Assembly (NCBI RefSeq): GCF_000166395.1
Contig: NC_014655.1
Span: 1,674,001-1,738,000, forward strand
Direction of reading: 5' to 3'
Origin: Leadbetterella byssophila DSM 17132
GTDB taxonomy: Bacteria; Bacteroidota; Bacteroidia; Cytophagales; Spirosomataceae
Length of the DNA stretch: 64,000 nt
The translations under genes and the position numbers were made by a program. The first letter of the stretch is position 1. Every line of letters begins with the position of its first letter. Positions 5,529 to 43,948 of the stretch are shown here, piece after piece. The notes beneath the pieces were generated by a model that saw only the letters and a program-made list of their open reading frames with translations, did not search any database and had not been told where the DNA came from.

Positions 5529-5535
5529 TGTTTAC

Positions 5536-26819: not shown

Positions 26820-28355
26820 ATGAAAAGAACATTTAATTATATACTTAGCGCGGCAATCCTCTTAGGGAGTGTAGCCTGCGAGGATAATCTACCGGAAGAG
26901 ATAAGCACCCTAAACGTAAGTAGGGTCTTCTCTCCTACCGGTTTGGAGGCGAGGATTGTTAACCAAACTTCCATAAGGGTTAGTTGGGCCGCGGTCAAAA
27001 ATGCCAAATCCTATAGTATTCAAGTATTTGAAGGACAAAATACTAGTGGAACTCCAGTATGGTCAAAGGACGGCATAGCCTGGGAAGAAATGCCTTACAC
27101 CATTCCTGCACTCAATGGAGAAACCCTATATACCGTTCAAGTAAGGGCTAATGGGGACGGAATAGCAGATTCAAAATGGTCCGGCGTAAGTATCACTACA
27201 AATGCGGAACAGCTTTTCTTACCTGTGGATCCGGAAGAAATAAAAGCTACTCAAGTAACTTTAAAATGGACTGCTGGGTCTGAAGCTGACCGCATACTCC
27301 TTATGCCGGGTGAGAAAACGCACACCCTCACTCCATCTGAAAAAGCGGAAGGAAAAGCTACAATAACTGGGCTAGCAGGTGAAACTACCTATACCGCTAG
27401 ATTAATGAGGGGTACGGCTACCAGAGGCACCATCACTTTCACTACACCAATAGACCTTGGTGATGCAATAGTTATTAATCCGGGGGATGATATCACTACC
27501 ATCTTCCAAAATGCCAAAGAGGGAGATGTGTTTGGTCTTCTTCCTGGTACTTATACCTCAGGAGATATTACTATCAGTAAATCTATCTCCATTAAAGGTG
27601 CCAGACCGAACGATAAACCAGTTCTTAAAGGAACCATCTTTAGAGTTAGCGAAGGTGCTGGTCTAGACTTAAAAGACCTACATTTAGATGGAACGGGTTC
27701 TCTGGATGGAAATCAAACCATCATCTACGCAGCAGGAAACTTTAAGCCCCTGAGCATTGACGGTTGTATCATCAGAAACTACACCAAAGGTACTCTTTAT
27801 GTAAACAATGCCACATTAATTGAATCTGTGAGTATTTCAAATACTATATATTCAGAAATTGAATGTAATGGCGGGGATTTTATTGATTTCAGGAACGGTC
27901 TGACTCCTAAGTTTGATTTCTTTAATAATACTGCCTATAATTCAGCCCTGGCCAGAGATTTCTTCCGCATGGATGCAGGCGGGTCTACGAATTTCCCTGA
28001 TGTGCAAAGCATCATTAGCATTAGAAATAATACTTTCAACAATGTTTCAAATGGAAATAACAGAAGAATGTTATATATCCGTTTGGCCAATCATGAGATT
28101 AGCTTTGAAAAAAATATGGTAACTAATACTCAGGGGTATCATACGAATCAAGCCTCTACGAACATTGTGAAGTTTGATAAGAACAATTATTTCAATGCTC
28201 CAAACTTTAAGGGAAGTACTCAGTCGGGAGCTAAGAATGACCCATCCGGTACCACTCTGGATCCAGGTTATACGAATGCTGCAGGAGGTAATTTTAAAGT
28301 AAGCAATGAAGAGTTACGCTTCCAAGGTATTGGAGACCCGCGGTGGTTACAATAA
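26820..28355 (+). CDS. Surface beta-helix lipoprotein with FN3 and DUF4957/DUF5123-like domains
   Basis: 511 residues. Lipobox LGSVAC (Cys20) followed by ED, fitting surface lipoproteins. Then a fibronectin-type segment (about 40-210, TGLEARIVNQTSIRVSW and ETLYTVQVRANGDG; a second copy IKATQVTLKWTAG) and a right-handed beta-helix (about 215-510) starting NPGDDITTIFQNAKEGDVFG with ITISKSISIKGARPNDKPVL. Together this is the DUF4957 / DUF5123 layout often encoded beside SusCD in pectin loci. No lyase or hydrolase catalytic signature could be picked out. It is probably a glycan-binding partner, but weak lyase activity is not excluded. Confidence 0.82.
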   Translation: MKRTFNYILSAAILLGSVACEDNLPEEISTLNVSRVFSPTGLEARIVNQTSIRVSWAAVKNAKSYSIQVFEGQNTSGTPVWSKDGIAWEEMPYTIPALNGETLYTVQVRANGDGIADSKWSGVSITTNAEQLFLPVDPEEIKATQVTLKWTAGSEADRILLMPGEKTHTLTPSEKAEGKATITGLAGETTYTARLMRGTATRGTITFTTPIDLGDAIVINPGDDITTIFQNAKEGDVFGLLPGTYTSGDITISKSISIKGARPNDKPVLKGTIFRVSEGAGLDLKDLHLDGTGSLDGNQTIIYAAGNFKPLSIDGCIIRNYTKGTLYVNNATLIESVSISNTIYSEIECNGGDFIDFRNGLTPKFDFFNNTAYNSALARDFFRMDAGGSTNFPDVQSIISIRNNTFNNVSNGNNRRMLYIRLANHEISFEKNMVTNTQGYHTNQASTNIVKFDKNNYFNAPNFKGSTQSGAKNDPSGTTLDPGYTNAAGGNFKVSNEELRFQGIGDPRWLQ

Positions 28356-28387
28356 CGAGTTAATTTATGGCTATAAATCGCTAAAAA

Positions 28388-28413
28388 TTGCCGGCTTTTG
28401 TCCGGCTTTTTTT
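28388..28413 (+). terminator. Rho-independent terminator of the PL10-SusCD operon
   Basis: Stem GCCGG / CCGGC (28390-28394 with 28402-28406), T-rich loop, then seven T. Located 33 bases after the last gene of the operon. Confidence 0.85.
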
Positions 28414-28442
28414 ATGAAATTTGGGGCTAATTTGATACGACT

Positions 28443-29378
28443 ATGCTTATCATTTCTGACGATAAAATTAAAGAGCATCTAGGCTATGCCGGACTGATAG
28501 AGTCCTTAAGAAATATTTTCTTATCTGACTATACCATGCCTTTACGCCACCATCACTTCTACACTACTCCCGAAGGATTAGAAAATACCTTAATCTTGAT
28601 GCCCGTGTGGAATCAAGATTACATAGGAATGAAGCAAGTGACCGTAGCTCCGGGAAATGCCCAACTAGGCATACCCTCGATCTTTGCCAGATATATTCTG
28701 AGTGATGCACGTACAGGACAGCCACTAGCTATGATGAATGCGGCTGAATTAACTTCCAGAAGAACTGCATGTACTTCTGCCTTAGCAGCGAATTATCTAT
28801 CCAGAAAAGATGCTAAAAACCTATTAATAGTAGGAAGTGGAAAAGTAGCTCAACACCTGGGTCAGGCTTACGCCGCCATCAGAGATTTAGAAAGTATAGA
28901 AGTTTGGGCCAGAAATAAAGAAAAGATGGCTGAGTTAGTTCAGGATCTACAATCCAAAGGACTTCCGGCAAAAGAATCAAATAACCTGGAAGAATCCGTA
29001 CGAAATGCTGACATTGTTTCCTGTGCCACCCTTTCAGAAACGCCTGTCATATTAGGGGACTGGGTGAAACCGGGAACTCACTTAGACATGATTGGTTCCC
29101 ATAAGCCGAACACCAGGGAGACAGATAATGTAGCCATACGCAAGAGTACCATTTTTGTAGACTCTAGAATGGGGGCATTACACGAAACCGGTGAATTAGC
29201 CATCCCTATAGCTGAGGGAATCATCTCAGAGGAAGATGTGAAAGCAGATATTACTGAACTCATCAGAGGTATACACGGAGGCAGAAGCTCCGAAGAAGAA
29301 ATTACACTATTTAAATCTGCAGGATTAGCTGTTGAAGACTTAGCAGCCGCCCTGATGGTTTTTAAACGGTGTATATAA
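28443..29378 (+). CDS. Ornithine cyclodeaminase / mu-crystallin family protein
   Basis: 311 residues of the OCD/mu-crystallin family of NAD(P)-dependent enzymes; members include ornithine cyclodeaminase, alanine dehydrogenase and delta1-pyrroline-2-carboxylate reductase. The substrate-binding half (MLIISDDKIKEHLGYAGLIE; GMKQVTVAPGNAQLGIPS; MNAAELTSRRTACTSALAA) is followed by the Rossmann motif LLIVGSGKVAQHLGQAYAA and DMIGSHKPNTRETDN. A candidate -7 element TAATTTG lies about 10 bases before the ATG. The specific substrate cannot be read from the sequence, and the neighbours do not help. Confidence 0.88.
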   Translation: MLIISDDKIKEHLGYAGLIESLRNIFLSDYTMPLRHHHFYTTPEGLENTLILMPVWNQDYIGMKQVTVAPGNAQLGIPSIFARYILSDARTGQPLAMMNAAELTSRRTACTSALAANYLSRKDAKNLLIVGSGKVAQHLGQAYAAIRDLESIEVWARNKEKMAELVQDLQSKGLPAKESNNLEESVRNADIVSCATLSETPVILGDWVKPGTHLDMIGSHKPNTRETDNVAIRKSTIFVDSRMGALHETGELAIPIAEGIISEEDVKADITELIRGIHGGRSSEEEITLFKSAGLAVEDLAAALMVFKRCI

Positions 29379-29390
29379 ATGGTTGAATAA

Positions 29391-29420
29391 TAAAAAAGCG
29401 GCTGCTTAGCCGCTTTTTTT
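29391..29420. terminator. Bidirectional terminator between convergent genes
   Basis: Stem AAGCGGCT / AGCCGCTT (29396-29403 with 29408-29415), flanked by A-run on the left and T-run on the right, so it can serve both converging genes. Confidence 0.92.
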
Positions 29421-30288
29421 ATTGTAATGCTCTTTTTGCTGCTGCTTTCTTTTTCCAATTGAACCATTTATCACCTAAGACCTTATTAAAGATCTCATCC
29501 AAATGAGTCATAATACCTACTTGCCAGAATCCAAGTAGTCTATCAGAAATATGCGGACTAAGGGAACGTACGGCAAAACCTAAGCCGGCGGTATTGTATT
29601 CAATATGATGCCAATACCCCGCAGGCATAAATATGGTATCCCCGGGTCCAATCACACAATCATAGCCTTGTACCCTAGCTAGTTCAGGATACTTTTCAAA
29701 ATCAGGGTTATTTACGTCTATAGATGTATGAGTAGAGAACGGATATTGGTACAACTTTTTAGAATACTCCGGAGCAAACATCACCACTCTTTTATACCCT
29801 ACTAACTCTGTTAAGAAAACACAACTATTATCCATATCTCTATGAATACGAGTGATGGCCCCTTGTCCCCCAAAGAACGCTAAAGGTAAAAATTCAACGA
29901 CCTTATCTGCTATCTTAGGAAACTTGAAATGCTGGTGTAATTCCTTCTTATGTTTGAATACATTAAACAGAAACAAACGTTTAGTGGTAGGTTTTTCTTG
30001 AATCAGTTCCAAATATTCACGGAACTTCATCTTTTTCCCCGCGGACTTATAAGATCTGTCATCTTTCCTCTCCTCTGACTCATCATCAAAAACCCCCACT
30101 TCAATATGACCTAACTCTTTGGCAAAGTAATCAAAGGACCACTGATAGACCTGAGCGTCTTTGCCATACATGTGCTTAATAATAACCGGTTTCTGAGGAA
30201 TCATGTATTTTTCCTGAAATTCCTCTCTCGTAATGTTTTCAACCCTGTCTACGGTTAAACTGAGATCGATGGATAAATCTGTTGGCAT
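29419..30288 (-). CDS. JmjC-like cupin (Cupin_8) iron/2-oxoglutarate oxygenase
   Basis: 289 residues with the cupin-8 / FIH-like layout of Fe(II)/2-oxoglutarate-dependent oxygenases. The N-terminal motif IPQKPVIIKHM is typical. The iron-binding triad is visible: His149 and Asp151 in RIHRDMDN and His227 or His228 in GYWHHIEYN, preceded by GPGDTIFMPAG. These enzymes usually hydroxylate proteins, tRNA bases or small molecules; the substrate here is unknown. Monocistronic and convergent with the cyclodeaminase gene, sharing a terminator. Confidence 0.88.
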   Translation of the reverse strand: MPTDLSIDLSLTVDRVENITREEFQEKYMIPQKPVIIKHMYGKDAQVYQWSFDYFAKELGHIEVGVFDDESEERKDDRSYKSAGKKMKFREYLELIQEKPTTKRLFLFNVFKHKKELHQHFKFPKIADKVVEFLPLAFFGGQGAITRIHRDMDNSCVFLTELVGYKRVVMFAPEYSKKLYQYPFSTHTSIDVNNPDFEKYPELARVQGYDCVIGPGDTIFMPAGYWHHIEYNTAGLGFAVRSLSPHISDRLLGFWQVGIMTHLDEIFNKVLGDKWFNWKKKAAAKRALQ

Positions 30289-30341
30289 ATTGCTTTAATA
30301 ATGGATACGAATATAACGAAGGTTCAGGGTACTATTGTTCC

Positions 30342-30381
30342 TAAAAGAAAAAATTCCTGCATCGAAAATCGTTGCAGGAAT
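30342..30381 (-). terminator. Rho-independent terminator of the coiled-coil protein gene
   Basis: Minus strand stem ATTCCTGCA / TGCAGGAAT (30353-30361 with 30373-30381) followed by TTTTTC. It lies 38 bases beyond the stop at 30419. Confidence 0.85.
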
Positions 30382-30418
30382 CTGATAGAACCCTATAAAC
30401 CATTATGATATGCTATCT

Positions 30419-31366
30419 TTATTTGATCTGGAAATTTCCAGTTCCAATTTTAAATCCTTCCGAGTATAACTCTACCGCGTATACGCCTGAGTTAAACTCT
30501 TGACTTTTTTGGTAGTACATAGCTACCTTTTGATCATTGTTTGTGTAAGGTACTGATTGACGTACAGAATATCCAATTTCTTTTCCTGCAAAATCAATCA
30601 CTCCTCCTCTACCCATGTCATTTAATACCGCTCCATTTGGATCTAGTATTCTGAGGTACACGTCTTTATTTGTTTGTTCTGTCAGTGGATTAGAAGGAAG
30701 GCTGTAAGTCACTTTTAATTGATCAATCTTTTTACTCTTAATCTTTCCATCTTTTTCCTTTCCCTTAGACGTCAAACCTACCACTTCCACATTAACAGCT
30801 TTCAAAGCCGCAGCTGTGTTCACTTTATGTTGTAGATCCTTATTCTTAGTAGACACTTCATCTACTACATTTGTCAAGGAGTCTTTAGCAGCAGAAAGAT
30901 ATGTATTTTGAGTAATTACCTCTTCTTTTTCCGTCTTTAAGGTCAGATTTTCCGAAGCCAAAAGCCCGTTTTCTTCCCTCAATTTCATGATTTCTTCGTC
31001 TTTAGCAGCTAAGAACTTCTCATACTCTGCTATCTTGTCGTTATATTTCTTTGCTGAGAAGCTTGATGAAGATCTCAAGTTTTTGATATCTTTCTCTAAT
31101 TCAGCTTTGATTTTCTCCAACTCTTCGACGCTTCCTCCTAATGACTCAACCTCTAAAATTTTTGCTTCCAGAGCTCTAGAAATAGAATCTAATTTTACTC
31201 TTGTATCAGATAATTCTCCTACTTTGGTATCTAATAAACCTTGAAGGTCTTTATTTTTTGTTTGTGTATTGAAATAAAGGTACCCAACTAATGCTAACGC
31301 CGCCAATAAAACTATAACTCCTATACGAAGTGCTCCTGAGTTATTGTTTTGATTTGAAGTTTCCAT
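30419..31366 (-). CDS. Single-pass membrane protein with long coiled coil
   Basis: 315 residues from the ATG at 31366 (METSNQNNNSGALRIG); an upstream ATG at 31414 would add 16 residues that read like leader sequence. One TM helix near the N-terminus (GVIVLLAALALVGYLYF), then a heptad-rich coiled coil (about 35-185: KNKDLQGLLDTKVGEL, KAELEKDIKNL, EYEKFLAAKDEEIMKLREEN) and a C-terminal beta-rich domain (about 190-315: IKSKKIDQLKVTYSLPSNPL, ending GFKIGTGNFQIK). Resembles widespread Bacteroidota envelope proteins without known function. Same strand as the two-component genes but 94 bases downstream of them. Confidence 0.75.
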   Translation of the reverse strand: METSNQNNNSGALRIGVIVLLAALALVGYLYFNTQTKNKDLQGLLDTKVGELSDTRVKLDSISRALEAKILEVESLGGSVEELEKIKAELEKDIKNLRSSSSFSAKKYNDKIAEYEKFLAAKDEEIMKLREENGLLASENLTLKTEKEEVITQNTYLSAAKDSLTNVVDEVSTKNKDLQHKVNTAAALKAVNVEVVGLTSKGKEKDGKIKSKKIDQLKVTYSLPSNPLTEQTNKDVYLRILDPNGAVLNDMGRGGVIDFAGKEIGYSVRQSVPYTNNDQKVAMYYQKSQEFNSGVYAVELYSEGFKIGTGNFQIK

Positions 31367-31460
31367 ATGCTTTCCTAACGCTTTGTGTTTTTTGATGCTA
31401 CAAAGTTGTGTCACTGACCTTAAACCCGAATTAATCTAGAATTAAATTTGGCTTAAAATA

Positions 31461-32843
31461 TTAGGCTTTAGGAAATGAGAGTATAAAGGAGTTACCATTA
31501 GATCCTGGTACTATACTCAATTTGATCTTCAATAGAAGCAAGATCTGCATAACAATGGCCAATCCTACTCCATGTCCCCGTTTCCCTTTTGCCGTAGCAT
31601 CTGACCTGAAAAAAGGTTCCAGGATCTTAGAAACCTCCGTTTCCGGGATAGGCTTACCTTCATTGTAAATCTCTATAGCTAGACCACCATCCCCTTCTCT
31701 TAAAGTAACCTCTGCTTTCTGTTCTAAGGAGAACTTACAAGCATTATCCAGTAGATTCTTAAAAACGATTTTCAAAGCCTCCTCATTTACGGGGAAGATC
31801 AATAATTCTTCATCATCCGGAATCTCATCCAGATTTAAAAGTACTTTACAGTCCGGATTCCACCTTTTAAACTCCGCCACTCCCGCTAATAGAATCTCAT
31901 CTATTCTCAGTTTTTTTAAGGGCAACTCCTTATCTGAAGAACTGATACTAGCTAACTCTAACAATGCATTAGTCAACTGATTCAGCATTAATGTATCAGA
32001 GCGCAATGACATGATCTGCTGATAGAACTCAGGCTGATGCTTATATTTCATCTCCATGATTTCTATCTGCGTAAAGATCTTTGTTAATGGATTTTTCAAT
32101 TCATGAGATACATTTGCGATAAACATCCTCTGCGTATTCACCGAACTTTCTACCCTTTGTAACAACTGATTGATGGTCTTCGCAATAAAGCCTATCTCAT
32201 CCTGCTTATTTGGATAATCTAGACGTTTGGAAAGATTACCTGGAAAAATGGCGTCCAGTTGCCTGGCCATACTGGCAATAGGAGACAGTGCCCTATCTGC
32301 CATAAACCAGGAGATATAAGCTATAAATAATAAGGCCACAAGGCAAAGGATGATTAGAATATCCCTTAGATTATTCAAAGCCTCCCTTTCATAAACATCT
32401 TTGGCACTAATAACAACCCAATAGTTCTTGATCTTTATAACTGAGATCTTATACTTATCACGGGAAATATTATTTACCGCTTTACTGGTATCTTGAGGAT
32501 TGATAAAACTTCTATGAAAACTTTCCTTTAAGATATCTGTAGTGAAGACAAAGAGGTCTCGCTGTGGATCATAAATAGAGGTCATTTCTTCCGTAAGCAT
32601 ACGCTCATCAGAATTACGCACCAAATCTTGTAAAGCCTTTTGATCTGCGCTATATGCAATGCGCAAGGAAGCCGTAACTATAGCCCTTTCCTGCAATCCA
32701 TTATAGAATCTACTGTTCAGGTATAGCCTACTGAAAAGATATATACTGGTACAGAATAAGAGGAAAAGCACACTAACCATAAGCAAAATCTGCAAGGTTA
32801 GTCGCTGACGAATGTTTAAGCTATTCAGAAATTTCCTCAACAT
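31461..32843 (-). CDS. Sensor histidine kinase
   Basis: 460 residues. TM1 (about 14-36), a periplasmic sensor region of about 120 residues, TM2 (about 160-180) then a HAMP domain. The phospho-accepting His247 sits in FIANVSHELKNPLTKIF, followed by the ATPase domain with N box KNLLDNACKFS and G box GHGVGLAIV. Its start overlaps the end of the response regulator gene by 7 bases. Domain order and overlap are directly visible; the signal is unknown. It belongs to the orthodox OmpR-type kinases. Confidence 0.95.
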   Translation of the reverse strand: MLRKFLNSLNIRQRLTLQILLMVSVLFLLFCTSIYLFSRLYLNSRFYNGLQERAIVTASLRIAYSADQKALQDLVRNSDERMLTEEMTSIYDPQRDLFVFTTDILKESFHRSFINPQDTSKAVNNISRDKYKISVIKIKNYWVVISAKDVYEREALNNLRDILIILCLVALLFIAYISWFMADRALSPIASMARQLDAIFPGNLSKRLDYPNKQDEIGFIAKTINQLLQRVESSVNTQRMFIANVSHELKNPLTKIFTQIEIMEMKYKHQPEFYQQIMSLRSDTLMLNQLTNALLELASISSSDKELPLKKLRIDEILLAGVAEFKRWNPDCKVLLNLDEIPDDEELLIFPVNEEALKIVFKNLLDNACKFSLEQKAEVTLREGDGGLAIEIYNEGKPIPETEVSKILEPFFRSDATAKGKRGHGVGLAIVMQILLLLKIKLSIVPGSNGNSFILSFPKA

Positions 32844-33520
32844 TTCATTACATATCCCATGCCTATCTGGGTGTGAATCAGTTTGACATCAAAGTCCTTG
32901 TCTATTTTTTTGCGAAGGAAATTCACATATACTTCGATGACATTTGTGCCTGTATCAAAAGTAATATCCCAGATCTTTTCAGCTAATTCCACCTTAGAAA
33001 TCACACGACCCACATTACTCATAAAGAATTCCAATAGGCTGAACTCCTTTGCCGTTAATGTAATCTCTTTATCTCCTCTCTTTACGGCCTTGGTATCTAC
33101 GTTCAGTTCTAGGTCCGCCACCCTAAGTATATTCGATTTTTGAATCACCGCATTTCCTCTACGGGTTAAGGCACGAATCCTAGCCCTCAATTCTGAAAAT
33201 TCAAATGGTTTACTAAGATAATCATCTGCACCGGAATCTAATCCTGTAATGATGTCTTCTGTAGTGCCCAAAGCCGTCAATAACAGGATTGGGGTATGAT
33301 TTCCATTGTCTCTTAAGGTTTTACAGAGGGTTAAACCGTTGATTTCCGGTAAAATAATATCACTAATAATAAGAGAATACTCATTCCTTTCTGCCAGAGT
33401 TAAGCCCATTTGTCCATCATAGGCTATATCCACTTGCGCATTATTCTCCTCTAATCCCTCCTTAATTAGATTCAAGGTTTTTACCTCATCTTCAATGAGT
33501 AATATCTTTAAGCCCTGCAT
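32837..33520 (-). CDS. OmpR-family response regulator
   Basis: 227 residues. Receiver domain with the acidic pair ED at 10-11, phospho-acceptor Asp54 (IISDIILPEING), Thr82 and Lys104 (YLSKPF). A winged-helix DNA-binding domain follows (about 130-227: VKRGDKEITLTAKEFSLLEFF, TNVIEVYVNFLRKKID, HTQIGMGYVMKC). Overlaps the kinase gene and is divergent from the CHAT gene, with 117 bases between starts. Targets are unknown, and nearby genes on either side are only candidates. Confidence 0.96.
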   Translation of the reverse strand: MQGLKILLIEDEVKTLNLIKEGLEENNAQVDIAYDGQMGLTLAERNEYSLIISDIILPEINGLTLCKTLRDNGNHTPILLLTALGTTEDIITGLDSGADDYLSKPFEFSELRARIRALTRRGNAVIQKSNILRVADLELNVDTKAVKRGDKEITLTAKEFSLLEFFMSNVGRVISKVELAEKIWDITFDTGTNVIEVYVNFLRKKIDKDFDVKLIHTQIGMGYVMKC

Positions 33521-33637
33521 AGAATAAGCATTTATCTGTGTTTACACTCCAAAGAAACATAATATTATGATATTCACTATGCACTAAGTAAGATTTATTG
33601 AGGAAAGTTTGTATTTTGACAACCACAAATAAACACT

Positions 33638-36424
33638 ATGATAAGATTTATCCTTTTTCTCATCATTGGTGGCCCCATTTACGCCCAAACCAATCCATTA
33701 GCTGACAGCCTCCGTATCATGCAAGTATATGGAGAAGAATTTGATTTACGTGCTAATGAGAAAGATCCAACGGCTCGCCTGTTAGCCAAAGCTAATCAAT
33801 TGATACTGGAAGAAAAGGACAAAGAAGCCTCCGCTATATTAGATAAGATAATAAGTTCCAAAGAAAAATTTTGGTACCAGGTCACAAAATCTCGCTTACT
33901 TACTTTAAGAGGGGAATATGACCAAGCTGTGGAAATACTTCAAAAATTAAATCCCAAGAAAGGAAGTGCTGAAGCCGCCATTAAAGAACTCGAGATGGCC
34001 AAAAACATGGAGCACAAGCAGGAGTATGTAGAACTAGTGAAGCACTACGAGAAATCCCTGGAGCATCTCAAAAAAACCTCCTACACCTACCTTTTAGGTA
34101 CTGTCCTAAACGATTTAGCATTTGCTTATGACGAAGCAGGATTTCGGCATAAAACCATACAATTCTCTGATCAGGCATTAAAAATCTTTATGGAGCACTA
34201 TCCGAAAGATTATAGCATCGTGAGTGTCTGCTTTAATAACTTACTTTTCTACGTGATAGAATACGGAGATAAAAAGAAAAGTTCAGAGGTTCACGAGAAG
34301 TACGTTCAATATATGGAGCACTTCTTAGCCAATAAGAAAAGCTTTTCAGCTCCTAAAAAATTTGAAGATTTACATGCTGAAGGCCTTTACCGCTTAAGTG
34401 ATTTACGCTACACATGTTTCAAGAATGGAGACATACTAGGGGCACTTAACCGACTAGAAACCTTCCACAAAAGAGCCCCAAAGGCATGGTCTCAAGAAAA
34501 CGTAGGTATTGTAAACTCTGGAATAGAAGCGGCACAATACCAGTTCCGGCAGCAAAAAAGATTCGATCTCGCACTTAAATACACTCATCAGATAGGAAAA
34601 TACAAAAAAACTTCCTACACCGAGATGAAGAAGAATGCAGCCTTCGCCCTAACTTATTATGACGCCAAGGATTACAAAAAGAGCTTACCATATACATTAA
34701 AATGTCTGGAGGAATTTGATTTCCCCAAGGGTTCAAAAAGCTGGCAAACCTTAATGGCCTTAAAAGCACACCTGGAATCCAAACTTAAAATGGATCCTTT
34801 ATCTACCTTAAAAACCCTTTTTGACGCTACTTTAAAGGAAGATATCAAAGAATTTAATCCTGATAAATATCCTCAACATATCAACAAAATATTCATCCAG
34901 GTATTGATTCGTGCAGCTTGGGTCTCTAACGAACTAGACAAGCCCCAAGATGCTACTTTCTATTTCCGATTAGCCGCAAAAATCTTTGAGAAATACTATC
35001 AAAATGGATATTACAACGATAGCTTAGGAGAAATTTTGGATGATCTGGAAGATGGACTATACCAGGATAAGGGTTCTGAAAAAGAAATCATTGAAAACTT
35101 AAATCAATTAGAAAGAATCACAAACGCCCACCTTTGGGGTAGATTCTCCTCCAAATATCTTCAGAATTTAAATCTCCCAAAAGAGGAGTTACAAAGGAAG
35201 AACCAACTGGAACTACGAAGAAACCAGTTGAGCCGCACGTATGAATTAGAGCTGGCTAACCATCGAGAAATAAAGGAAATAGATTTACAACTAGACGGAA
35301 TCCAAAATAGATTATCTGCCGTTTCCAAAGAGTTTGCCATCTTAAGCGCTACTAAATTTGACGTAAGAGAGGTTCAAAAGCTGTTAAAGCCTAAAGAAGT
35401 ACTGGTCAAGTATACCACAGGTTCAAAAAATATATATGCCCATATCATCACCCAGAATTCTATCCAATTAAAACCTTTAGGAGAAATTGAAACTGTTAAG
35501 AAGCATACTCAAACCTTCATTGATGAGGTAAAGAAGATCAAGCACCTCTCATCTCAAATTTACCAACCCTTACGCGAGTCTCTGATCCACCCTTTGGATC
35601 TGGAAAAATATGAATCCATAGTTTTTATATCAGAGGACTTCCTGAGTTATGTTCCTTTCGAACTCTTGTTTAAAAGTATGAAACCGGTATCTCATGCCTT
35701 CAGCTTTAAAAACCTTTTGCTGACACGCATGAACAGTACTCCTCTTAGTATATCAGGTAATTTAGCAGGTTTTGTCCCTACCTATCCAAATAGTCAAAGG
35801 GATCTAAAATTCACCAGACAAGAGCTAAGTAATATCGAAGATTATATTGGCTCCACCTCTCTTTTTGAAGGGCCACAAGCATCTAAACAGAGTTTCTTAG
35901 GCAGTGTAGGTAAATACAGGATCCATCATTTGGCCATGCACTCAGAAATGGATGATGAAGATTTCGAGATGTCCAGCTTATCCTTCTATGCAGAAGAGAA
36001 ACTTCATTTCCACGAGATATATTCCTTAAATTTCCCTTCTGAAATGGTAGTATTGAGCGCTTGTAATACCGGATCCGGGCAATACTTAAATGGAGAAGGA
36101 GTCATGAGCTTGGCCAGAGCTTTATCCTATGCCGGAGTCAGATCATCTTTAACCAGCTTATGGCAAGTACCAGATAAGGAAAGTGCAGAACTGATGGTCT
36201 TGTTTTATAAATATCTATCCAAAGGGCTGGAAAAAGACCTTGCCTTAATCAAAGCGAAAGAAGAATTTATAGAAAATCATCCCATGCACTCTCACCCTTA
36301 TTTTTGGGCCGGATTTATACTGACGGGTGATACCCGCCCCTTGAAGGAAAAGAAAAATTATACCTATCTTTTACTCGGACTAGGACTCATCGCAGCCGTA
36401 CTAGCGTACAGGAAATTAAGGTAG
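33638..36424 (+). CDS. Membrane-anchored TPR-CHAT (caspase-like) protein
   Basis: 928 residues. Signal peptide (MIRFILFLIIGGPIYAQ), then a long helical TPR-type region (about 30-500), a coiled stretch (510-570), and a CHAT domain (about 590-900). The caspase/separase dyad is present: His768 in HHLAMHSEM (canonical AtHG) and Cys809 in VVLSACNTGSGQ, with GEGVMSLARALSYAGVRSSLTSLWQV following. The C-terminus is a TM helix (YLLLGLGLIAAVLAYRKLR). Topology therefore predicts TPR and CHAT in the periplasm. It overlaps tail to tail by 9 bases with the anti-sigma-like gene. CHAT domains are proteases or signalling relatives; activity here is inferred from the intact dyad. Confidence 0.9.
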   Translation: MIRFILFLIIGGPIYAQTNPLADSLRIMQVYGEEFDLRANEKDPTARLLAKANQLILEEKDKEASAILDKIISSKEKFWYQVTKSRLLTLRGEYDQAVEILQKLNPKKGSAEAAIKELEMAKNMEHKQEYVELVKHYEKSLEHLKKTSYTYLLGTVLNDLAFAYDEAGFRHKTIQFSDQALKIFMEHYPKDYSIVSVCFNNLLFYVIEYGDKKKSSEVHEKYVQYMEHFLANKKSFSAPKKFEDLHAEGLYRLSDLRYTCFKNGDILGALNRLETFHKRAPKAWSQENVGIVNSGIEAAQYQFRQQKRFDLALKYTHQIGKYKKTSYTEMKKNAAFALTYYDAKDYKKSLPYTLKCLEEFDFPKGSKSWQTLMALKAHLESKLKMDPLSTLKTLFDATLKEDIKEFNPDKYPQHINKIFIQVLIRAAWVSNELDKPQDATFYFRLAAKIFEKYYQNGYYNDSLGEILDDLEDGLYQDKGSEKEIIENLNQLERITNAHLWGRFSSKYLQNLNLPKEELQRKNQLELRRNQLSRTYELELANHREIKEIDLQLDGIQNRLSAVSKEFAILSATKFDVREVQKLLKPKEVLVKYTTGSKNIYAHIITQNSIQLKPLGEIETVKKHTQTFIDEVKKIKHLSSQIYQPLRESLIHPLDLEKYESIVFISEDFLSYVPFELLFKSMKPVSHAFSFKNLLLTRMNSTPLSISGNLAGFVPTYPNSQRDLKFTRQELSNIEDYIGSTSLFEGPQASKQSFLGSVGKYRIHHLAMHSEMDDEDFEMSSLSFYAEEKLHFHEIYSLNFPSEMVVLSACNTGSGQYLNGEGVMSLARALSYAGVRSSLTSLWQVPDKESAELMVLFYKYLSKGLEKDLALIKAKEEFIENHPMHSHPYFWAGFILTGDTRPLKEKKNYTYLLLGLGLIAAVLAYRKLR

Positions 36425-37066
36425 TTCTTCAAGTACTTTCTTAGCCATTTCCTGCACAGGATTTTCGTATTGAGTTAGCTTCATAAACAGGGTTTTCGCC
36501 TCCTGGGTCTTTTGGGTTCTTTGAAGACTCAACGCCAAATACCATTTTGCATAAGCAGAGATATCCGCATCCTCAGCGTTTACTTGCTTTAAAACTGACA
36601 CAGCTTCTTCATTTTTATCCAACACCAAAAAACACACCCCTTTATACAAAAGCACTTCCGGAGTTTGTTCTAATTTATCAAACTCCTTCAAAGCCTCCTC
36701 GTAATTGCCAGCTTCATACGCTGAAAATGCCGTAGAGACCGGATATTTCGTATCACGAACGGAGGGTTGGATCAAATTTGGCAAAGGTCTAAAATAGGCC
36801 TGATCTGAAAACTCCCTTTTGGGAAAGAAAACAATGCTTAATATGATGATTGCAGCGGCTGCACCTACCCACCAATAATTCCTTTTTGGCTTTTCATCCA
36901 GTCCTTGCAAATAGGTCTTTAATTCTTTCCTCGCAATTCCCTGCTTAACGGCACTTAAAAATTCAAATTCCTTCTTCCATTCGGGATCGGAATCAATCTT
37001 GTTCTTTACCTCCTGAGCTTCCTCAGCATTAAGTTCACCCAGAATATATTTTTCAATCCTTTCCAT
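36416..37066 (-). CDS. Membrane anti-sigma-like protein with periplasmic TPR domain
   Basis: 216 residues. The N-terminal cytoplasmic part (1-63; MERIEKYILGELNAEEAQEVKNK) has the helical start seen in ECF anti-sigma factors, but no HxxxCxxC zinc motif. One TM helix (about 64-84, WWVGAAAAIIILSIVFF) and then a periplasmic tail with TPR-like repeats (about 110-216, FSAYEAGNYEEALKEFDKL). It overlaps the ECF sigma gene by 14 bases and the CHAT gene by 9 bases. An anti-sigma role is inferred from position and topology. Confidence 0.8.
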   Translation of the reverse strand: MERIEKYILGELNAEEAQEVKNKIDSDPEWKKEFEFLSAVKQGIARKELKTYLQGLDEKPKRNYWWVGAAAAIIILSIVFFPKREFSDQAYFRPLPNLIQPSVRDTKYPVSTAFSAYEAGNYEEALKEFDKLEQTPEVLLYKGVCFLVLDKNEEAVSVLKQVNAEDADISAYAKWYLALSLQRTQKTQEAKTLFMKLTQYENPVQEMAKKVLEELP

Positions 37067-37559
37067 AATAATCTTTTAGTTGTTTGAGGCAGCGAGATTT
37101 TTGACTCTTTAGGACATCCTTTTTATCGTAGCCCATAATTTCTTGTATTTGCTCCAATTTTTTACCCTCGTAATAGAATAGCTTTAAAATTTCATAACAT
37201 CTTTTCCCTAATCGGGACAAGGCCGGCTCTAGATTCGGTATTTCTTCTTTTTCTTCCTGGTACCAATGGCTCTCCAGTTCATGTGGGTCAATCTCCCTCT
37301 GATTGCGCATACGTTTAAAGGCCATGTATTTCCCTATTGAGAACAGATAGGTTTTTAATTCCACACTGAGATCATCACATTTACCTTTTTGCACATTTTC
37401 TACAAAAGCTATTATAGCATCCTGATATATATCCGCGATCTCCTCTTTCGAAAGGGAGTAGCGAGACAAAAACAGAATAAACCCTGCACGGTATTCTTTA
37501 TAGATCTGGCCTATGGTCTCACGGTTCCCCGATTTGACTTCTTCGATTCGTTTATCCAT
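37053..37559 (-). CDS. ECF-type RNA polymerase sigma factor
   Basis: 168 residues. Region 2 is visible around FLSRYSLSKEEIADIYQDAIIAFVENV, and region 4 in RLGKRCYEILKLFYYEGKKL with IQEIMGYDKKDVLKSQKSRCLKQL as the helix-turn-helix. Short linker between them and no other domains, as in extracytoplasmic function sigma factors. First gene of a two-gene unit with the anti-sigma-like protein. It is divergent from the OmpA gene with 87 bases between starts. The target promoter is not identified. Confidence 0.92.
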   Translation of the reverse strand: MDKRIEEVKSGNRETIGQIYKEYRAGFILFLSRYSLSKEEIADIYQDAIIAFVENVQKGKCDDLSVELKTYLFSIGKYMAFKRMRNQREIDPHELESHWYQEEKEEIPNLEPALSRLGKRCYEILKLFYYEGKKLEQIQEIMGYDKKDVLKSQKSRCLKQLKDYYGKD

Positions 37560-37646
37560 TCTTTTGTGCTATTCTAAAAAAAAAGTAAACATTTCATGCT
37601 TACCTCCGGACCACGCTGACACTAAGAACAAAAAAAGACAAAAATA

Positions 37647-38981
37647 ATGAGAAGTAAAATACTGATCCTTTTATTGTTAAGCTGGTCTTTAGGATTTGGA
37701 CAAATTATTGACCCAAAAGAAACAGCAAAAAGAAAAGCAGAAGACCGCACTAATCGCGGTATTGACAGAACTCTTGATAAAGGTCTGGATAAAGTAGAAG
37801 AAGGTATAGGCAGTATATTCAAAAAGAAGAACAAAGAAGAAAAGCCTAAAGAGGATAAAAAATCATCTACTAAGAAGGACAAAAATTCTCCCAAAGAGAC
37901 TGAAACTATTGAAGAAGATGCTGAAAATTCAGCAGATACTAAAAAATCTGCACCTGCTAAGGCATCCCTTCAGTCTTATACTAAGTTTGACTTCATTCCG
38001 GGAGAAAAGGTCATAGGTTCAGAAGATTTCATGCAAGATGCAGTGGGAGATTTCCCTGCTAAATGGAATTCTAATGGTTCCGGAGAAATCTCCACCATTC
38101 ATGGAGTACAAGGACACTGGCTTGCATTGAGTAGCAAAGGCGTATTCTACCCGGAATTTATAGAGGATCTGCCTGAAAACACCACCATAGAATTTGACAT
38201 GGCCGTGTCTGATGATTTCTCTGAAATGCAATCCGGCCTAAAAGTTTTTATGGTAAAAAAAGACGCTAGGAATACTTTATTTGACCAATTTTTCTCAACA
38301 GATGCACAGGCTACCGTAATCATTCATCCATATGGGGCTTCTAATGGTGGTTACAGCAAATTCATAGCCTTTGATAAAAATGGGCAACCTCTAGTTGATA
38401 ATCAGGCTGCACTCACGAATTGGAAAGCCAGTGAAATAAATCGCATTTCCATCTGGAAACAAAAAACCAGATACAGAATGTATATCAACGAAACCAAAAT
38501 TTGGGATATCCCTAGAGCTATAGACCCTACCGTCCAGTATCAACTGCTATTTGCCACGTATCCTTGGACAGGGTCCATCTATATCTCTAATCTAAGAGTA
38601 GCTGCAGGTGCTCCGGACACCAGAAATAAATTAATTACGGAAGGAAAATTCGTAACACGCGGAATCACCTTTGATGTCAATTCGGATAAGATTAAGCCGG
38701 AATCTTATGGAGTGATCAAAGAGATTGCCACAGTCTTACAAGAGAATTCCGGAATCAGGGTAAAGATCGTTGGACATACAGACAGTGACGGAGATGACAA
38801 GTCTAACCTCACCCTTTCACAAAAGCGAGCAGCCTCAGTGAAGAACTTTTTGACTTCCGAGTTTAAGATTGATGCCGAGAGGCTTGAAACCGAAGGTAAA
38901 GGAGAATCTGAGCCTTCTGAACCAAATACCACTCCTCAAGGAAAGGCGAATAACCGAAGAGTAGAATTTATCAAACTCTAA
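37647..38981 (+). CDS. Secreted OmpA-family protein with charged linker and beta-sandwich
   Basis: 444 residues. Signal peptide (MRSKILILLLLSWSLGFGQ), then a lysine/glutamate-rich low-complexity linker (about 45-105), a laminin-G-like beta sandwich (about 115-325; SEDFMQDAVGDFPAKWNSNG, TTIEFDMAVSDD, SIYISNLRVA), and a C-terminal OmpA peptidoglycan-binding domain (about 335-444) with FDVNSDKIKPESYGVIKEIA, GHTDSDGDDKSNLTLSQKRA and NRRVEF. It lacks an obvious beta-barrel, so it is probably a periplasmic or outer-membrane-associated linker protein. First gene of a four-gene envelope operon. Confidence 0.85.
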   Translation: MRSKILILLLLSWSLGFGQIIDPKETAKRKAEDRTNRGIDRTLDKGLDKVEEGIGSIFKKKNKEEKPKEDKKSSTKKDKNSPKETETIEEDAENSADTKKSAPAKASLQSYTKFDFIPGEKVIGSEDFMQDAVGDFPAKWNSNGSGEISTIHGVQGHWLALSSKGVFYPEFIEDLPENTTIEFDMAVSDDFSEMQSGLKVFMVKKDARNTLFDQFFSTDAQATVIIHPYGASNGGYSKFIAFDKNGQPLVDNQAALTNWKASEINRISIWKQKTRYRMYINETKIWDIPRAIDPTVQYQLLFATYPWTGSIYISNLRVAAGAPDTRNKLITEGKFVTRGITFDVNSDKIKPESYGVIKEIATVLQENSGIRVKIVGHTDSDGDDKSNLTLSQKRAASVKNFLTSEFKIDAERLETEGKGESEPSEPNTTPQGKANNRRVEFIKL

Positions 38982-39026
38982 AATAAACCTCTGGGTCGGG
39001 GCTACGCCTCCGGCCTAAATACCACT

Positions 39027-39341
39027 ATGAAACAAGGAAAAACACCAGCCATCTTAGCCTATATCACCATCTTGGGATGGATTGCAGGGCTACTCATGAA
39101 TCAGCAAGAGAAATCCCCCTTTGCCAGTTATCACTTGCGACAAGGCCTAGGCCTCTTTTTGACGGGATTTGCCTTCTCCTTCATAAACATCATTCCACTT
39201 CTAGGACAATTTGTCTTCCTTATTGGATTTGTAGTTCTATTTATCATGTGGATTAACGGCCTCCTCAATGCTCTTAATGAAAAAGAGAAACCTGTACTAT
39301 TTCTAGGCGAGTATTACAACAAATGGTTCCATTCCTTATGA
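39027..39341 (+). CDS. Small DUF4870-like membrane protein
   Basis: 104 residues with three hydrophobic helices (AILAYITILGWIAGLLM; GLGLFLTGFAFSFINIIPLLG; LIGFVVLFIMWINGLLNA). The pattern SPFASYHLRQGLGLFLT matches the DUF4870 / import-component-like family of small inner-membrane proteins. Function unknown. It overlaps the next gene by 4 bases (ATGA). Confidence 0.78.
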   Translation: MKQGKTPAILAYITILGWIAGLLMNQQEKSPFASYHLRQGLGLFLTGFAFSFINIIPLLGQFVFLIGFVVLFIMWINGLLNALNEKEKPVLFLGEYYNKWFHSL

Positions 39342-40069
39342 AAAAGCTCTTAATATTCTTACTCCCATTAGTATGGGCTTGTGGTTCAAAGAAATCCGCA
39401 GATTTAGAAGACACGCTAGAAAAGTATATTAAAAAGTCGGACGAGTCAAACCCTAATTCCTGCTTGATGAAGTATCAAGACAAGTTAGACGATCTACTTA
39501 CGCTAGCCATGGTCTGCAAAGCCACCGGCTTCAAGGCAGAAAATGCAGATACCTCCTATTCTAAGATCATGAGAAACCCGGAATATCATAAGGTAAATTA
39601 TTCGTTTAAAAACAAACGTATGGGTAAAGTACCGGCCTTAGATGGCATTTATGAGTTGAATGACCAAATAAGCGTAGGAGCCATTAAACCTATGACATTA
39701 GAGGAATTCAATAGAGATTACAAACCCGCCACTGAGGAGCAGGTGGTGGCTGCTAAAGAAGCTCTAGATGATGCATTAGAAAATAATGAAGAGGTAAAGG
39801 AAATTCGAAAAAAGGCTGAAACAGTCAGTGACGAGCAAATCAAAAAGACAGGAGGGGTATTAGTAGATATGTTCAAAAAGATATCCGAAGGCTACAGAAA
39901 TGTAGAGGGAATAGGAGGAGCCGCGAGATGGAACATCATCACCACAACCTTGAACGTTTGGCATGACGGTACTCATTTTGAGTTGGTGGTTAATATAGAT
40001 AATGATGTCGACAAAAATAAGCAAGTTGCCTTGAGCCTTGCCAAAGAAATTCTGGCTAAATGCCGTTAA
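39338..40069 (+). CDS. Unknown lipoprotein
   Basis: 243 residues from the ATG at 39338, chosen because it overlaps the previous stop as ATGA and gives a clean lipoprotein signal (MKKLLIFLLPLVWAC, Cys15); a start five codons earlier is possible. After the Cys the mature protein is charged and helical (LEDTLEKYIKKSDES; EFNRDYKPATEEQVVAAKEALDD) with a beta-rich end (ARWNIITTTLNVWHDGTHFELVVNI). I do not recognise the family. Co-transcribed with an OmpA-family gene, so it is probably an envelope component. Confidence 0.8.
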   Translation: MKKLLIFLLPLVWACGSKKSADLEDTLEKYIKKSDESNPNSCLMKYQDKLDDLLTLAMVCKATGFKAENADTSYSKIMRNPEYHKVNYSFKNKRMGKVPALDGIYELNDQISVGAIKPMTLEEFNRDYKPATEEQVVAAKEALDDALENNEEVKEIRKKAETVSDEQIKKTGGVLVDMFKKISEGYRNVEGIGGAARWNIITTTLNVWHDGTHFELVVNIDNDVDKNKQVALSLAKEILAKCR

Positions 40070-40125
40070 AATCGTTCTAAATCCTAACATTTGGGGGCTC
40101 AGTTCTACTGGGCTCCTCTAAAATC

Positions 40126-40731
40126 ATGAAAAAACTCCTACTCCTCTTTGCCTTATTTAGTTTCCAAAGTACAGCTCAGAAGCCTATCGTTTTCAAAGAG
40201 GTTTGGGTTTGGGAATATACGGATGAAGACGGTCAAAAACAGGAAATGGCCATCTATCACCTTCCGTCCAAAAACTATTGGCTTTTCACACCCGAATCCT
40301 ACGGTTCAAGTGGAGAAATGATTTCCTATATCTTAGCAAAGCCAAACGGAGAATACACCTTTGCCTTTCAAAATGAACATAGGAAAAAACTAGACCTTCA
40401 AACCGTTAAGTTAAACTTCCTCGCTCCAAAACCACTGCCGCCAATAGGTCAGAAGACAAAAACCTTTGGAGATACCTTTCTAGGATTTCCACTGATAACC
40501 GGGAAAGAACATAAAGGACCTGGTGGCAGTACTATCTATTTGGCACCAACTAAAAGTTCACTACTACCCATTCTTTATTTTAATTCTTTAGAAGGAGATG
40601 CAAAAATACCCGTCCATTTTCCTGTTACTCTACCGGGAAATATAATCCCATTAGAAGAGGTAGAAAATGGACAGGTAAAGTATACATTTAAATTTAAATC
40701 CAATACCGAGTATTGGGTATACCAGTATTAA
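40126..40731 (+). CDS. Unknown secreted protein
   Basis: 201 residues with a signal peptide (MKKLLLLFALFSFQSTAQ). The rest is beta-rich with aromatic stretches (EVWVWEYTDEDGQKQEM; FKFKSNTEYWVYQY). No recognisable domain. It follows the unknown lipoprotein by 56 bases. The word CTAACATTTG in that gap resembles a -7 element but has an extra base in the spacer, so it may or may not have its own promoter. It ends in TTAA, shared with the stop of the convergent GH28 gene. Confidence 0.75.
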   Translation: MKKLLLLFALFSFQSTAQKPIVFKEVWVWEYTDEDGQKQEMAIYHLPSKNYWLFTPESYGSSGEMISYILAKPNGEYTFAFQNEHRKKLDLQTVKLNFLAPKPLPPIGQKTKTFGDTFLGFPLITGKEHKGPGGSTIYLAPTKSSLLPILYFNSLEGDAKIPVHFPVTLPGNIIPLEEVENGQVKYTFKFKSNTEYWVYQY

Positions 40732-43055
40732 CGAAAAGCCGAGGACTTCGATTTGCTTAAAAACTTAATTCCGTCCTTTGGATAAGAAGTATTGAGCAAA
40801 CGAATCTTCTGACTCCTTTCCCCATGAATTTCTAAAAATGTACCGGGGCGATTTGCATGTTTCATCTGATCAAAAAGTACATTCTTGCTGTTTTGTACTT
40901 GAATCAAAGCCCCATCCTCTTTCGTCTGCACTCCCACATTCTTTAATTGGATATCCTCTGCTTCTATGATCAGAATACCTTTGTCTGATTTAAAATGAGA
41001 ATCTTCAATTTTGATTCCCCTAATGGGCATTTCAGGCAAACCTCTCAGTACAATAGCGGAAACTGCCCCATGACTTACTACATTTTTGATATAGAAGTTT
41101 TTGAACTGTGGGGTACCTTCATTCACCGGTTGAGGTGCGATAACCGGTAGAGCATGGCTATCCCCATCTAATGGAACGGGATCCTTTGCCTCGTAGTACA
41201 TATCAAATAAGATAGCCTCCCCAGGGATATTGTTCATAGCTATATTGCTGATATAGATATTCTCTACCACACCACCTCTATCTCTTTTGGTCTTAAACCT
41301 CAACCCTATATCTGTCCCTAAGAAGCTACAATTATCCACAAACACATTCTTAACTCCTCCAGACATCTCTGATCCTATCACAAATCCGCCATGTCCGTGG
41401 AAGACGGTAGTATTCTTGATAATGACATTCTCCGTGGGAACGCCTCTTTTTCTACCCTGTTCGTCTCTGCCAGATTTTAAGGTGATGGCATCATCTCCCG
41501 TATCAAAGGTACATCCATCCACTATGGCATAAGAACAAGATTCTAGATCTAAGGCATCATTATTCTGACCAAACCAAGGATTTCTAACATTCACGTTTCT
41601 AAGGGTAATGTGCTTGCTCAAAAGCGGATGCAAGGTCCAGGCAGGAGAGTTTTGAAAAGTAACCCCTTCAATCAGTACATTCTCGCATTCTGTTATACTG
41701 ATCATATTGGGTCGCAAGAAATCTTTTACCGTCATATAATCTTCTAGGGTTTTTCCTTCTACCCAAAGATTCGCCCAATCTCTCACATCTTCGTTTCCAT
41801 ATCTGGACTGTTCACTAGGGTACCAGGCATCTCCTTTCTTACCCACTACTCCACCGGACTCTACTAATTTCCTCCATTGGGTACTGGTCAATTTATTCTT
41901 CTTCACCTGCTTCCATACTTCACCAGACCCGTCCATGATTCCCTGTCCAGTGATTGCGATATTCACTTGGCCTACCGCCCAAATGGGTGCATGGCAGCGA
42001 AGAGCCTTTTGACCTTCCCAGGTAGTCTCTACTATAGGATAATCGTCTCTATTATTACTAAATTGTAGCAATGCTCCCTTTTGCAGATGCAGGTTAACAT
42101 TACTTTTCAACTTCAAAGGTCCAGTAACCCACACTCCTGCAGGAATCAGTACCGTTCCTCCTCCTGCCTCATGTGCCAAATCTATGGCCTGAGCTATGGC
42201 TGTAGTGTTCACCGTAAATCCATCTGCCTTAGCTCCATATCGTACAATATTGAAAGTATCTTTCCGGAAATAAGGCTCGTAAACTAGAGGCAGTTCAAAC
42301 TCATATTTATCAGCAAAGACTGACTTCTTCAAAAAGTTTCTTAGGGGATGAGAGGTCTCAACCAAAGCCTCCGCCACAGCCTTTGCCATCAATCGAGCAC
42401 CATAGGGGGAAAAATGGGTATTGTCAGTGATACCCTGTGGAAACTTTGGAAAGAAGCCACCAGTAAAATGCATGAAGATTTTCTTCGAAGATTCCACTCC
42501 ATGCGCCTCGATGATGGCTTGGCTTTTGGCATGTAAATCAATTAGTGCCAATTTATGCTTCGCAGCCACTTCCTTTACAACTTCAGGATAGGCTCCATGC
42601 TGATCCACAAACTTACCGTTTTCATCAAATTTCCGGCGCATGACAGGGGTCATTAGAACAGGAGTAGCTCCTTTTGCCTGAATCTCCTGAATATACCTTT
42701 CCAGATTCCTACGATAATCTGTGTTTGCCTCAGCGTACCTGAGGGTATCGTCTTGTTTTTGATCATTGTGACCAAACTGTATAAAGACAAAATCTCCCTT
42801 TTGCAACTGGTCATGTACGGCTTTCCAATGTCCCAAGCTGCGGAAACTTTTGGTGCTCCTCCCATTAACTGCATGGTTCTGTATCTCTACGGCATCCGTG
42901 AAGAGCTCAGGAAATACCTGACCCCAACCGGTCTCAGGCGCATCTATAGGCTTTTTGTTCGCCATGGTGGAATCACCAATCAAGAATATTCGTTGACGAG
43001 GCACCTGTAGGGACATCAATACCCACAGGCTGCACAGTAGCAAGAAGTTTTTCAT
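40728..43055 (-). CDS. CE12 rhamnogalacturonan acetylesterase fused to GH28 polygalacturonase
   Basis: 775 residues. Signal sequence, then an SGNH/CE12 esterase (about 20-240) with GDSTM (nucleophile Ser29), FGHND and the C-terminal DNTHFSPYGA, which supplies the catalytic Asp/His. A GH28 right-handed beta-helix follows (about 265-760): FNIVRYGAKADG, GPLKLKSNVNLHL, NNDALDLES, FDTGDDAITLKSGRDEQGR, HGHGGFVIGSEMSGG and RFKTKRDRGG. Catalytic acidic residues of GH28 are present. One chain thus combines deacetylation with backbone hydrolysis of pectin. Last gene of the kduD-kduI-CE12/GH28 operon. Confidence 0.94.
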   Translation of the reverse strand: MKNFLLLCSLWVLMSLQVPRQRIFLIGDSTMANKKPIDAPETGWGQVFPELFTDAVEIQNHAVNGRSTKSFRSLGHWKAVHDQLQKGDFVFIQFGHNDQKQDDTLRYAEANTDYRRNLERYIQEIQAKGATPVLMTPVMRRKFDENGKFVDQHGAYPEVVKEVAAKHKLALIDLHAKSQAIIEAHGVESSKKIFMHFTGGFFPKFPQGITDNTHFSPYGARLMAKAVAEALVETSHPLRNFLKKSVFADKYEFELPLVYEPYFRKDTFNIVRYGAKADGFTVNTTAIAQAIDLAHEAGGGTVLIPAGVWVTGPLKLKSNVNLHLQKGALLQFSNNRDDYPIVETTWEGQKALRCHAPIWAVGQVNIAITGQGIMDGSGEVWKQVKKNKLTSTQWRKLVESGGVVGKKGDAWYPSEQSRYGNEDVRDWANLWVEGKTLEDYMTVKDFLRPNMISITECENVLIEGVTFQNSPAWTLHPLLSKHITLRNVNVRNPWFGQNNDALDLESCSYAIVDGCTFDTGDDAITLKSGRDEQGRKRGVPTENVIIKNTTVFHGHGGFVIGSEMSGGVKNVFVDNCSFLGTDIGLRFKTKRDRGGVVENIYISNIAMNNIPGEAILFDMYYEAKDPVPLDGDSHALPVIAPQPVNEGTPQFKNFYIKNVVSHGAVSAIVLRGLPEMPIRGIKIEDSHFKSDKGILIIEAEDIQLKNVGVQTKEDGALIQVQNSKNVLFDQMKHANRPGTFLEIHGERSQKIRLLNTSYPKDGIKFLSKSKSSAFR

Positions 43056-43072
43056 TTATTTAAGGTGAATAA

Positions 43073-43097
43073 ACTCAGCGGCCGACTGCCGCTGAGT
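43073..43097 (-). repeat. Intercistronic perfect inverted repeat between kduI and CE12-GH28
   Basis: A 10-bp perfect stem ACTCAGCGGC / GCCGCTGAGT (43073-43082 with 43088-43097), 5-base loop. It lies in the 50-base gap between kduI and the fused esterase/polygalacturonase. Only TTTATTC follows on the minus strand, so a full terminator is unlikely; partial termination or mRNA processing is possible. Confidence 0.75.
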
Positions 43098-43105
43098 AAG
43101 TATGA

Positions 43106-43936: not shown

Positions 43937-43948
43937 TATAACAAAATT

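Follow-up and report, generated by a model that had tools for sequence, protein, structure and literature searches.

In a 64,000-nucleotide stretch of the Leadbetterella byssophila DSM 17132 genome (contig NC_014655.1, positions 1,674,001 to 1,738,000; this whole stretch is called the window below) a gene for a tetratricopeptide repeat (TPR)-CHAT protease lies next to genes for a membrane-spanning anti-sigma-like protein and an extracytoplasmic function (ECF) sigma factor. From comparison of this trio with its relatives we consider it probable that the CHAT protein cuts the anti-sigma-like protein as a site-1 protease and so starts release of the sigma factor; on the best reading of these sequences the module would add a variant to the known kinds of regulated anti-sigma proteolysis.

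An earlier note on this DNA, made from the letters alone, had described the three genes as one compact module, and all three were confirmed as open reading frames at the coordinates given in Table 1. The CHAT and anti-sigma-like proteins are encoded by two separate reading frames, not as one polypeptide, and the two genes converge with an overlap of 9 bases; the anti-sigma-like gene is downstream of and adjoins the sigma gene, with which it shares 14 bases. The note had also proposed a search for the same neighbourhood in other genomes, and the co-occurrence was indeed seen. Neighbourhoods of about 13 kb, picked by CHAT similarity only, were taken from close relatives, from the order, class and phylum, and from a collection of named genomes. 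In the set of 221 distinct related CHAT genes, the fetched stretch holds an ECF sigma factor gene for 163 and both sigma and a downstream anti-sigma-like protein for 153, and the convergent layout of the window is found in 105 of the 221. Since the 4.06 Mb source genome contains 21 matches to sigma70 region 2, about 0.07 sigma genes would be expected in a random 13 kb, against the 163 of 221 CHAT neighbourhoods observed. The trio occurs together beyond chance and recurs across Bacteroidota, also in members of the phylum that do not belong to the class (L256, L264 and L272). The association was likewise present in 72 of 80 cases in the named-genome set, which was fetched by CHAT motifs, and in the reverse search of 59 relatives the anti-sigma profile had most of its strongest matches beside a CHAT gene. 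These co-occurrence counts are probably low because some loci were mis-scored: L035 and L036 were scored as being without sigma, yet sigma and anti-sigma genes with the full linker motif lie about 6 kb off, and in the close relative L032 the anti-sigma gene (4990-5700) is split by a frameshift, either natural or an assembly error, so that the anti-sigma call was lost. No description of the Bacteroidota module was found in the literature searched, which did not cover the main ECF reclassification, where an earlier mention is possible.

By its family and its catalytic dyad the CHAT protein is predicted to be a peptidase. Its PF12770 score of 156.9 bits exceeds the cut-off of 24, and His768 and Cys809, which the earlier note had reported as an intact dyad, were invariant in the first 42 relatives and then in all complete CHAT copies (145 module copies and 58 others). 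The protein starts with a signal-like N-terminus, which is followed by a long helical TPR region, the CHAT domain, a C-terminal transmembrane (TM) helix and a final RKLR. An N-terminal hydrophobic segment is found in 139 of 146 module CHAT proteins and a C-terminal TM helix in the same number, 135 with a basic tail, although all topology counts over the 146 modules come from hydropathy heuristics only. On these features the CHAT and TPR domains are predicted to lie in the periplasm, as the note had supposed, and a cytoplasmic CHAT domain is not indicated. An AlphaFold2 (AF2) model of the protein reached a predicted local distance difference test (pLDDT) score of 90.9 and a predicted template modelling score of 0.87; the folds closest to it are Csx29 (8eey, Z 30.8 over 507 residues) and separase (Z 30.5), then DdvA (Z 23.1) and gingipain R (Z 20.3).

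In its AF2 model (pLDDT 86.6) the anti-sigma-like protein starts with three helices, which are followed by a single TM helix, a linker and a tail of TPRs. By the same heuristics the TM helix was detected in 142 of the 146 module anti-sigma proteins, with an excess of Lys and Arg on its N side in 139. Matches of the window protein itself to anti-sigma family models are weak and below cut-off; relatives, however, match such models at E values of up to 0.01 (45 of 105 for NF052375 and 27 of 105 for NF047528). TPR chains took up the hits of the fold searches made with the anti-sigma model, so that these are uninformative on the N-terminal domain, which probably holds the adjacent sigma factor inactive. 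The sigma factor scores 54.8 bits with TIGR02937 (sigma70-ECF) against a cut-off of 42.9, and with Pfam Sigma70_r2 it falls slightly short of the cut-off (20.7 against 24), marking it as a divergent ECF. Module sigma factors are also kept apart from the other ECFs of the source genome, as 17 of 17 of these are nearest to another of the genome's own ECFs.

The case for cleavage is carried by a joint change in the two neighbouring proteins. Between the TM helix and the TPR region the anti-sigma proteins have in common the motif YYxxYPNVxxPxVRG, and its Arg column, at a median of 25 residues beyond the TM helix by the measure of our script, holds Arg or Lys in 95 of 97 ungapped rows. The residue that follows is small (67 Gly, 29 Ser, 4 Asn, 4 Thr and 2 Asp; n=108), and in the AF2 model of the window protein pLDDT is lowered in the block 101-110, which holds Arg104. 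When 141 modules were classed by this linker residue, 119 had Arg or Lys and 22 had Met, and of 370 CHAT columns column 729 separated the two classes best, with column 766 second. Glu729 is present in 115 of the 119 Arg/Lys modules, the exceptions being two deletions, one Gln and one Val, and in none of the 22 Met modules, where Ala, Ser, Thr, Val, Phe, Tyr or Leu replaces it. In the AF2 model residue 729 is at the start of helix alpha1 (726-734); residue 766 is two positions before the catalytic His. An acidic residue of helix alpha1 has been shown or proposed to bind the P1 Arg in TbMCA2 (Asp95), MALT1 (Asp365) and gingipain R (Asp163; PMC4357240), and separases have Glu or Asp at the corresponding alpha1 position (PMC4626109). 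A profile alignment of CHAT with C14 metacaspases of related genomes paired Glu729 with the ND Asp and also paired both catalytic residues, at a low probability (1.4). It appears that the Arg-binding residue predicted for the enzyme is lost exactly when the linker of its neighbour loses the Arg. This coordinated loss of Glu729, seen both where a subtilase gene is part of the module and where it is not, bears the weight of the argument: a change of linker residue and specificity pocket together suggests that the enzyme probably cuts the neighbouring membrane protein. The earlier note had suggested that CHAT could cut the periplasmic tail of the anti-sigma protein; the joint switch lends support to this link between the two proteins, but the site is likely to lie in the linker between the TM helix and the TPR region.

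Several observations weigh against cleavage. Only three independent switches between Arg and Met are found on the tree, so that the joint change rests on a small number of independent events and cannot be given formal significance; a sign test of independent pairs had two to three pairs, which puts significance out of reach. Glu729 is also present in 50 of 58 CHAT genes without a nearby sigma gene and is therefore the family default, its presence alone being no evidence. The P1 residue or class of some divergent linkers was set by eye, about a quarter of the related CHAT genes have no sigma gene in the fetched stretch, and a search upstream of the sigma and CHAT genes found no shared promoter motif and mostly A/T-rich word pairs. 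With three switches, and with further columns that also differ between the clades, the coupled shift of the linker residue and Glu729 might be a by-product of ancestry in three clades and uninformative on who cuts whom. We regard this as unlikely, because columns 729 and 766 outrank the other 368 and because Glu729 was lost in all three Met lineages, with differing replacements and in layouts both with and without the subtilase.

An explanation that dispenses with the cut is that CHAT is a partner or sensor whose TPR-TPR binding alters sigma release, or that its substrate is something else. TPRs are present in both proteins, Csx30 is bound by active and inactive Csx29 alike (PMC10028731), and cleavage of the anti-sigma by CHAT is itself a prediction; however, a dyad that is invariant in all complete copies would be unexpected for a scaffold, and the predicted S1 column is the first of 370 in following the linker residue. 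We find such a role for CHAT distinctly improbable. Less probable still is that expression of CHAT is under the control of the sigma/anti-sigma pair and that CHAT is the effector, acting in the periplasm as an executioner or as a processing protease, while some other protease cuts the anti-sigma. Sigma factors often control adjacent genes, and in one sub-type of the module a subtilase gene separates CHAT from the anti-sigma gene. However, CHAT is mostly convergent to sigma and outside its operon, the two have no common promoter motif that we could see, and the joint change of the linker and the predicted S1 residue would be left unexplained.

We thus favour cleavage of the anti-sigma by CHAT, with the three genes acting together to relay a signal from the envelope to gene expression. 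The anti-sigma protein would sit in the inner membrane, where its cytoplasmic N-terminal helical domain would bind the ECF sigma factor and keep it inactive. The CHAT protein would be exported with its C-terminal helix as an anchor, so that its TPR and CHAT domains would face the periplasm beside the anti-sigma tail. On a periplasmic cue, which the TPR regions may sense, CHAT would use His768 and Cys809 to cut the linker after Arg104, some 20 residues outside the membrane, with Glu729 holding the Arg. The stub would then be processed by a general site-2 protease of the M50/RseP type, of which the source genome encodes two relatives, and by cytoplasmic proteases, and the freed sigma factor would turn on its regulon. 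Such a scheme offers a testable, residue-level mechanism for many uncharacterised CHAT proteins and ECF sigma factors of Bacteroidota, and it would place caspase-like proteases in bacterial envelope signalling. More tentatively, the modules may make up a phylum-wide class of periplasmic caspase-fold site-1 proteases that act on TPR anti-sigmas, with specificities co-evolving (Arg or Met), an occasional C14 swap and, possibly, a role as the source pool of the CRISPR III-E protease/sigma pair.

Table 1. Features of the CHAT/anti-sigma/sigma module, in positions of the window.
Feature	Position	Strand	Basis
TPR-CHAT protease gene, 928 aa	33638..36424	+	ORF (open reading frame); PF12770 156.9 bits; AF2 model; closest folds Csx29 and separase
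Signal peptide-like N-terminus MIRFILFLIIGGPIYA, followed by Q	33638..33685	+	Sequence; hydrophobic N-terminus shared by 139/146 CHAT proteins of modules
Helical/TPR region, putative sensor, about residues 20-570	33695..35347	+	AF2 model; TPR_12 match; TPR chains in PDB match
CHAT domain, residues 635-898	35540..36331	+	Pfam
Glu729 codon, predicted S1 residue, helix alpha1	35822..35824	+	Rank 1 of 370 columns against linker residue; alignment with metacaspase ND Asp (low probability); PMC4357240
His768 codon, catalytic dyad	35939..35941	+	Invariant
Cys809 codon, catalytic dyad	36062..36064	+	Invariant
C-terminal TM helix, residues 908-927, basic tail	36359..36418	+	AF2 helix 908-927; kept in 139/146
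Anti-sigma-like protein, 216 aa, predicted N-in/C-out	36416..37066	-	ORF; NCBIfam anti-sigma models matched by relatives: NF052375 (45/105), NF047528 (27/105)
Predicted cytoplasmic three-helix sigma-binding-like domain, residues 1-56	36899..37066	-	AF2 helices 2-8, 14-26 and 28-56; first 40 residues pLDDT >90
Single TM helix, about residues 62-84	36815..36883	-	Hydropathy
Predicted periplasmic linker, residues 85-109, motif YFRPLPNLIQPSVRD	36740..36814	-	Family motif YYxxYPNVxxPxVRG among relatives
Arg104 codon, predicted P1 of cleavage site	36755..36757	-	Arg/Lys in 95/97 ungapped rows; Arg/Lys 119 and Met 22 of 141 modules; pLDDT lowered in block 101-110
Predicted periplasmic TPR tail, residues 110-216	36419..36739	-	TPR_6 32.7 bits; structural match to YbgF TPR, Z 15.5
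ECF sigma factor, 168 aa	37053..37559	-	TIGR02937 54.8 bits (cut-off 42.9); 44-53% identity to relatives that lie next to the same CHAT and anti-sigma genes

The CHAT gene was the only one found in the source genome, and a histidine kinase/response regulator pair (window 31461-33520) lies divergent from it. Elsewhere the module varies in layout. In one sub-type, a single clade, the genes for sigma, anti-sigma, a subtilase (S8) and CHAT are on one strand and Met replaces the linker Arg; it is seen at L041, L042, L043, L056 (1064-6841, an example of the layout), L057, L059, L067 and L094, and most of five aligned subtilases of this sub-type have triad-like motifs. Another sub-type encodes a protein of about 315 aa directly upstream of CHAT (L037:3005-3964, L049:2981-3946, L066:2645-3595 and similar loci); it has no convincing Pfam match and could possibly serve as an accessory sensor. 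Tandem CHAT genes are present at L244 and L245, from phylum genomes outside the class, with an ECF sigma gene some 3-7 kb off and no anti-sigma gene found. Related ECF sigma genes, mostly paired with a TPR anti-sigma-like gene, also lie near metacaspase (Peptidase_C14) genes at L288, L289, L290, L291, L292, L294, L300 and L304, in some cases in genomes without a detected CHAT gene, and here the linker is mostly without the usual Arg motif. This hints that the sigma/anti-sigma pair can exchange one caspase-fold partner protease for another.

The module closest in logic is the CASP module of type III-E CRISPR systems (Csx29, Csx30 and CASP-sigma), which likewise has a TPR-CHAT protease and a substrate that inhibits an ECF-like sigma factor; Csx29 is also the best structural match of the whole window CHAT model. 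The cut in Csx30 falls between residues 427 and 429, in a flexible loop, and is prevented by deletion of M427 (PMC10028731). However, the CRISPR system is cytoplasmic and is activated by Cas7-11 with target RNA, whereas the window CHAT is predicted to be periplasmic and its candidate substrate is a one-TM anti-sigma with a linker residue that is mostly Arg. The earlier note had called the module CRISPR-independent, and in agreement with this no match to a RAMP-family Cas protein (PF03787), and with it no sign of the RAMP fusion Cas7-11, was found in the whole source genome. No CRISPR-like repeat array was seen in window positions 28000-44000, where there are only two-copy, weakly alike repeats, and PADLOC models gave no match, so that a known defence system receives no support. 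We conclude that the module of the window, in its proposed way of working, resembles the protease module of CRISPR III-E without belonging to it; as a CRISPR-free relative of the Csx29/Csx30/sigma logic it bears on the origin of the CRISPR module.

DdvS/DdvA of Myxococcus xanthus (PDB 8rot and 8rw5) also has an ECF sigma factor held by a transmembrane anti-sigma that bears a CHAT domain, and DdvA, whose fold match is given above, is the best PDB sequence match of the CHAT profile (E 1.8e-7); the signal that activates it is unknown (PMC4374960). In DdvA, however, CHAT is inside the anti-sigma polypeptide (chain residues 381-991 match our model), whereas the window has two proteins from convergent genes. 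The earlier note had spoken of a new type of regulated sigma release, a wording that is slightly too strong given the precedents of the CRISPR III-E module and DdvA (8rot). CHAT and subtilase genes are likewise described in the conserved neighbourhood of the ECF54 sigma factors, for which proteolytic control without an anti-sigma has been proposed (PMC8999054); in contrast, 153 of the modules described here encode a TM anti-sigma-like protein. With the Arg-specific clan CD proteases (separase, gingipain R, MALT1 and metacaspase) the window CHAT would share the caspase-like fold and an acidic S1 residue on alpha1, but their substrates and regulation differ. The proteolysis of RseA, in which DegS, a PDZ serine protease, is the site-1 protease and RseP acts after it, has in common with our scheme a one-TM anti-sigma and a site-1 cut, here predicted, in the periplasm near the membrane, followed by a site-2 protease, for which M50 relatives are present; the difference is that the site-1 protease of the window would be a caspase-fold cysteine protease with TPRs.

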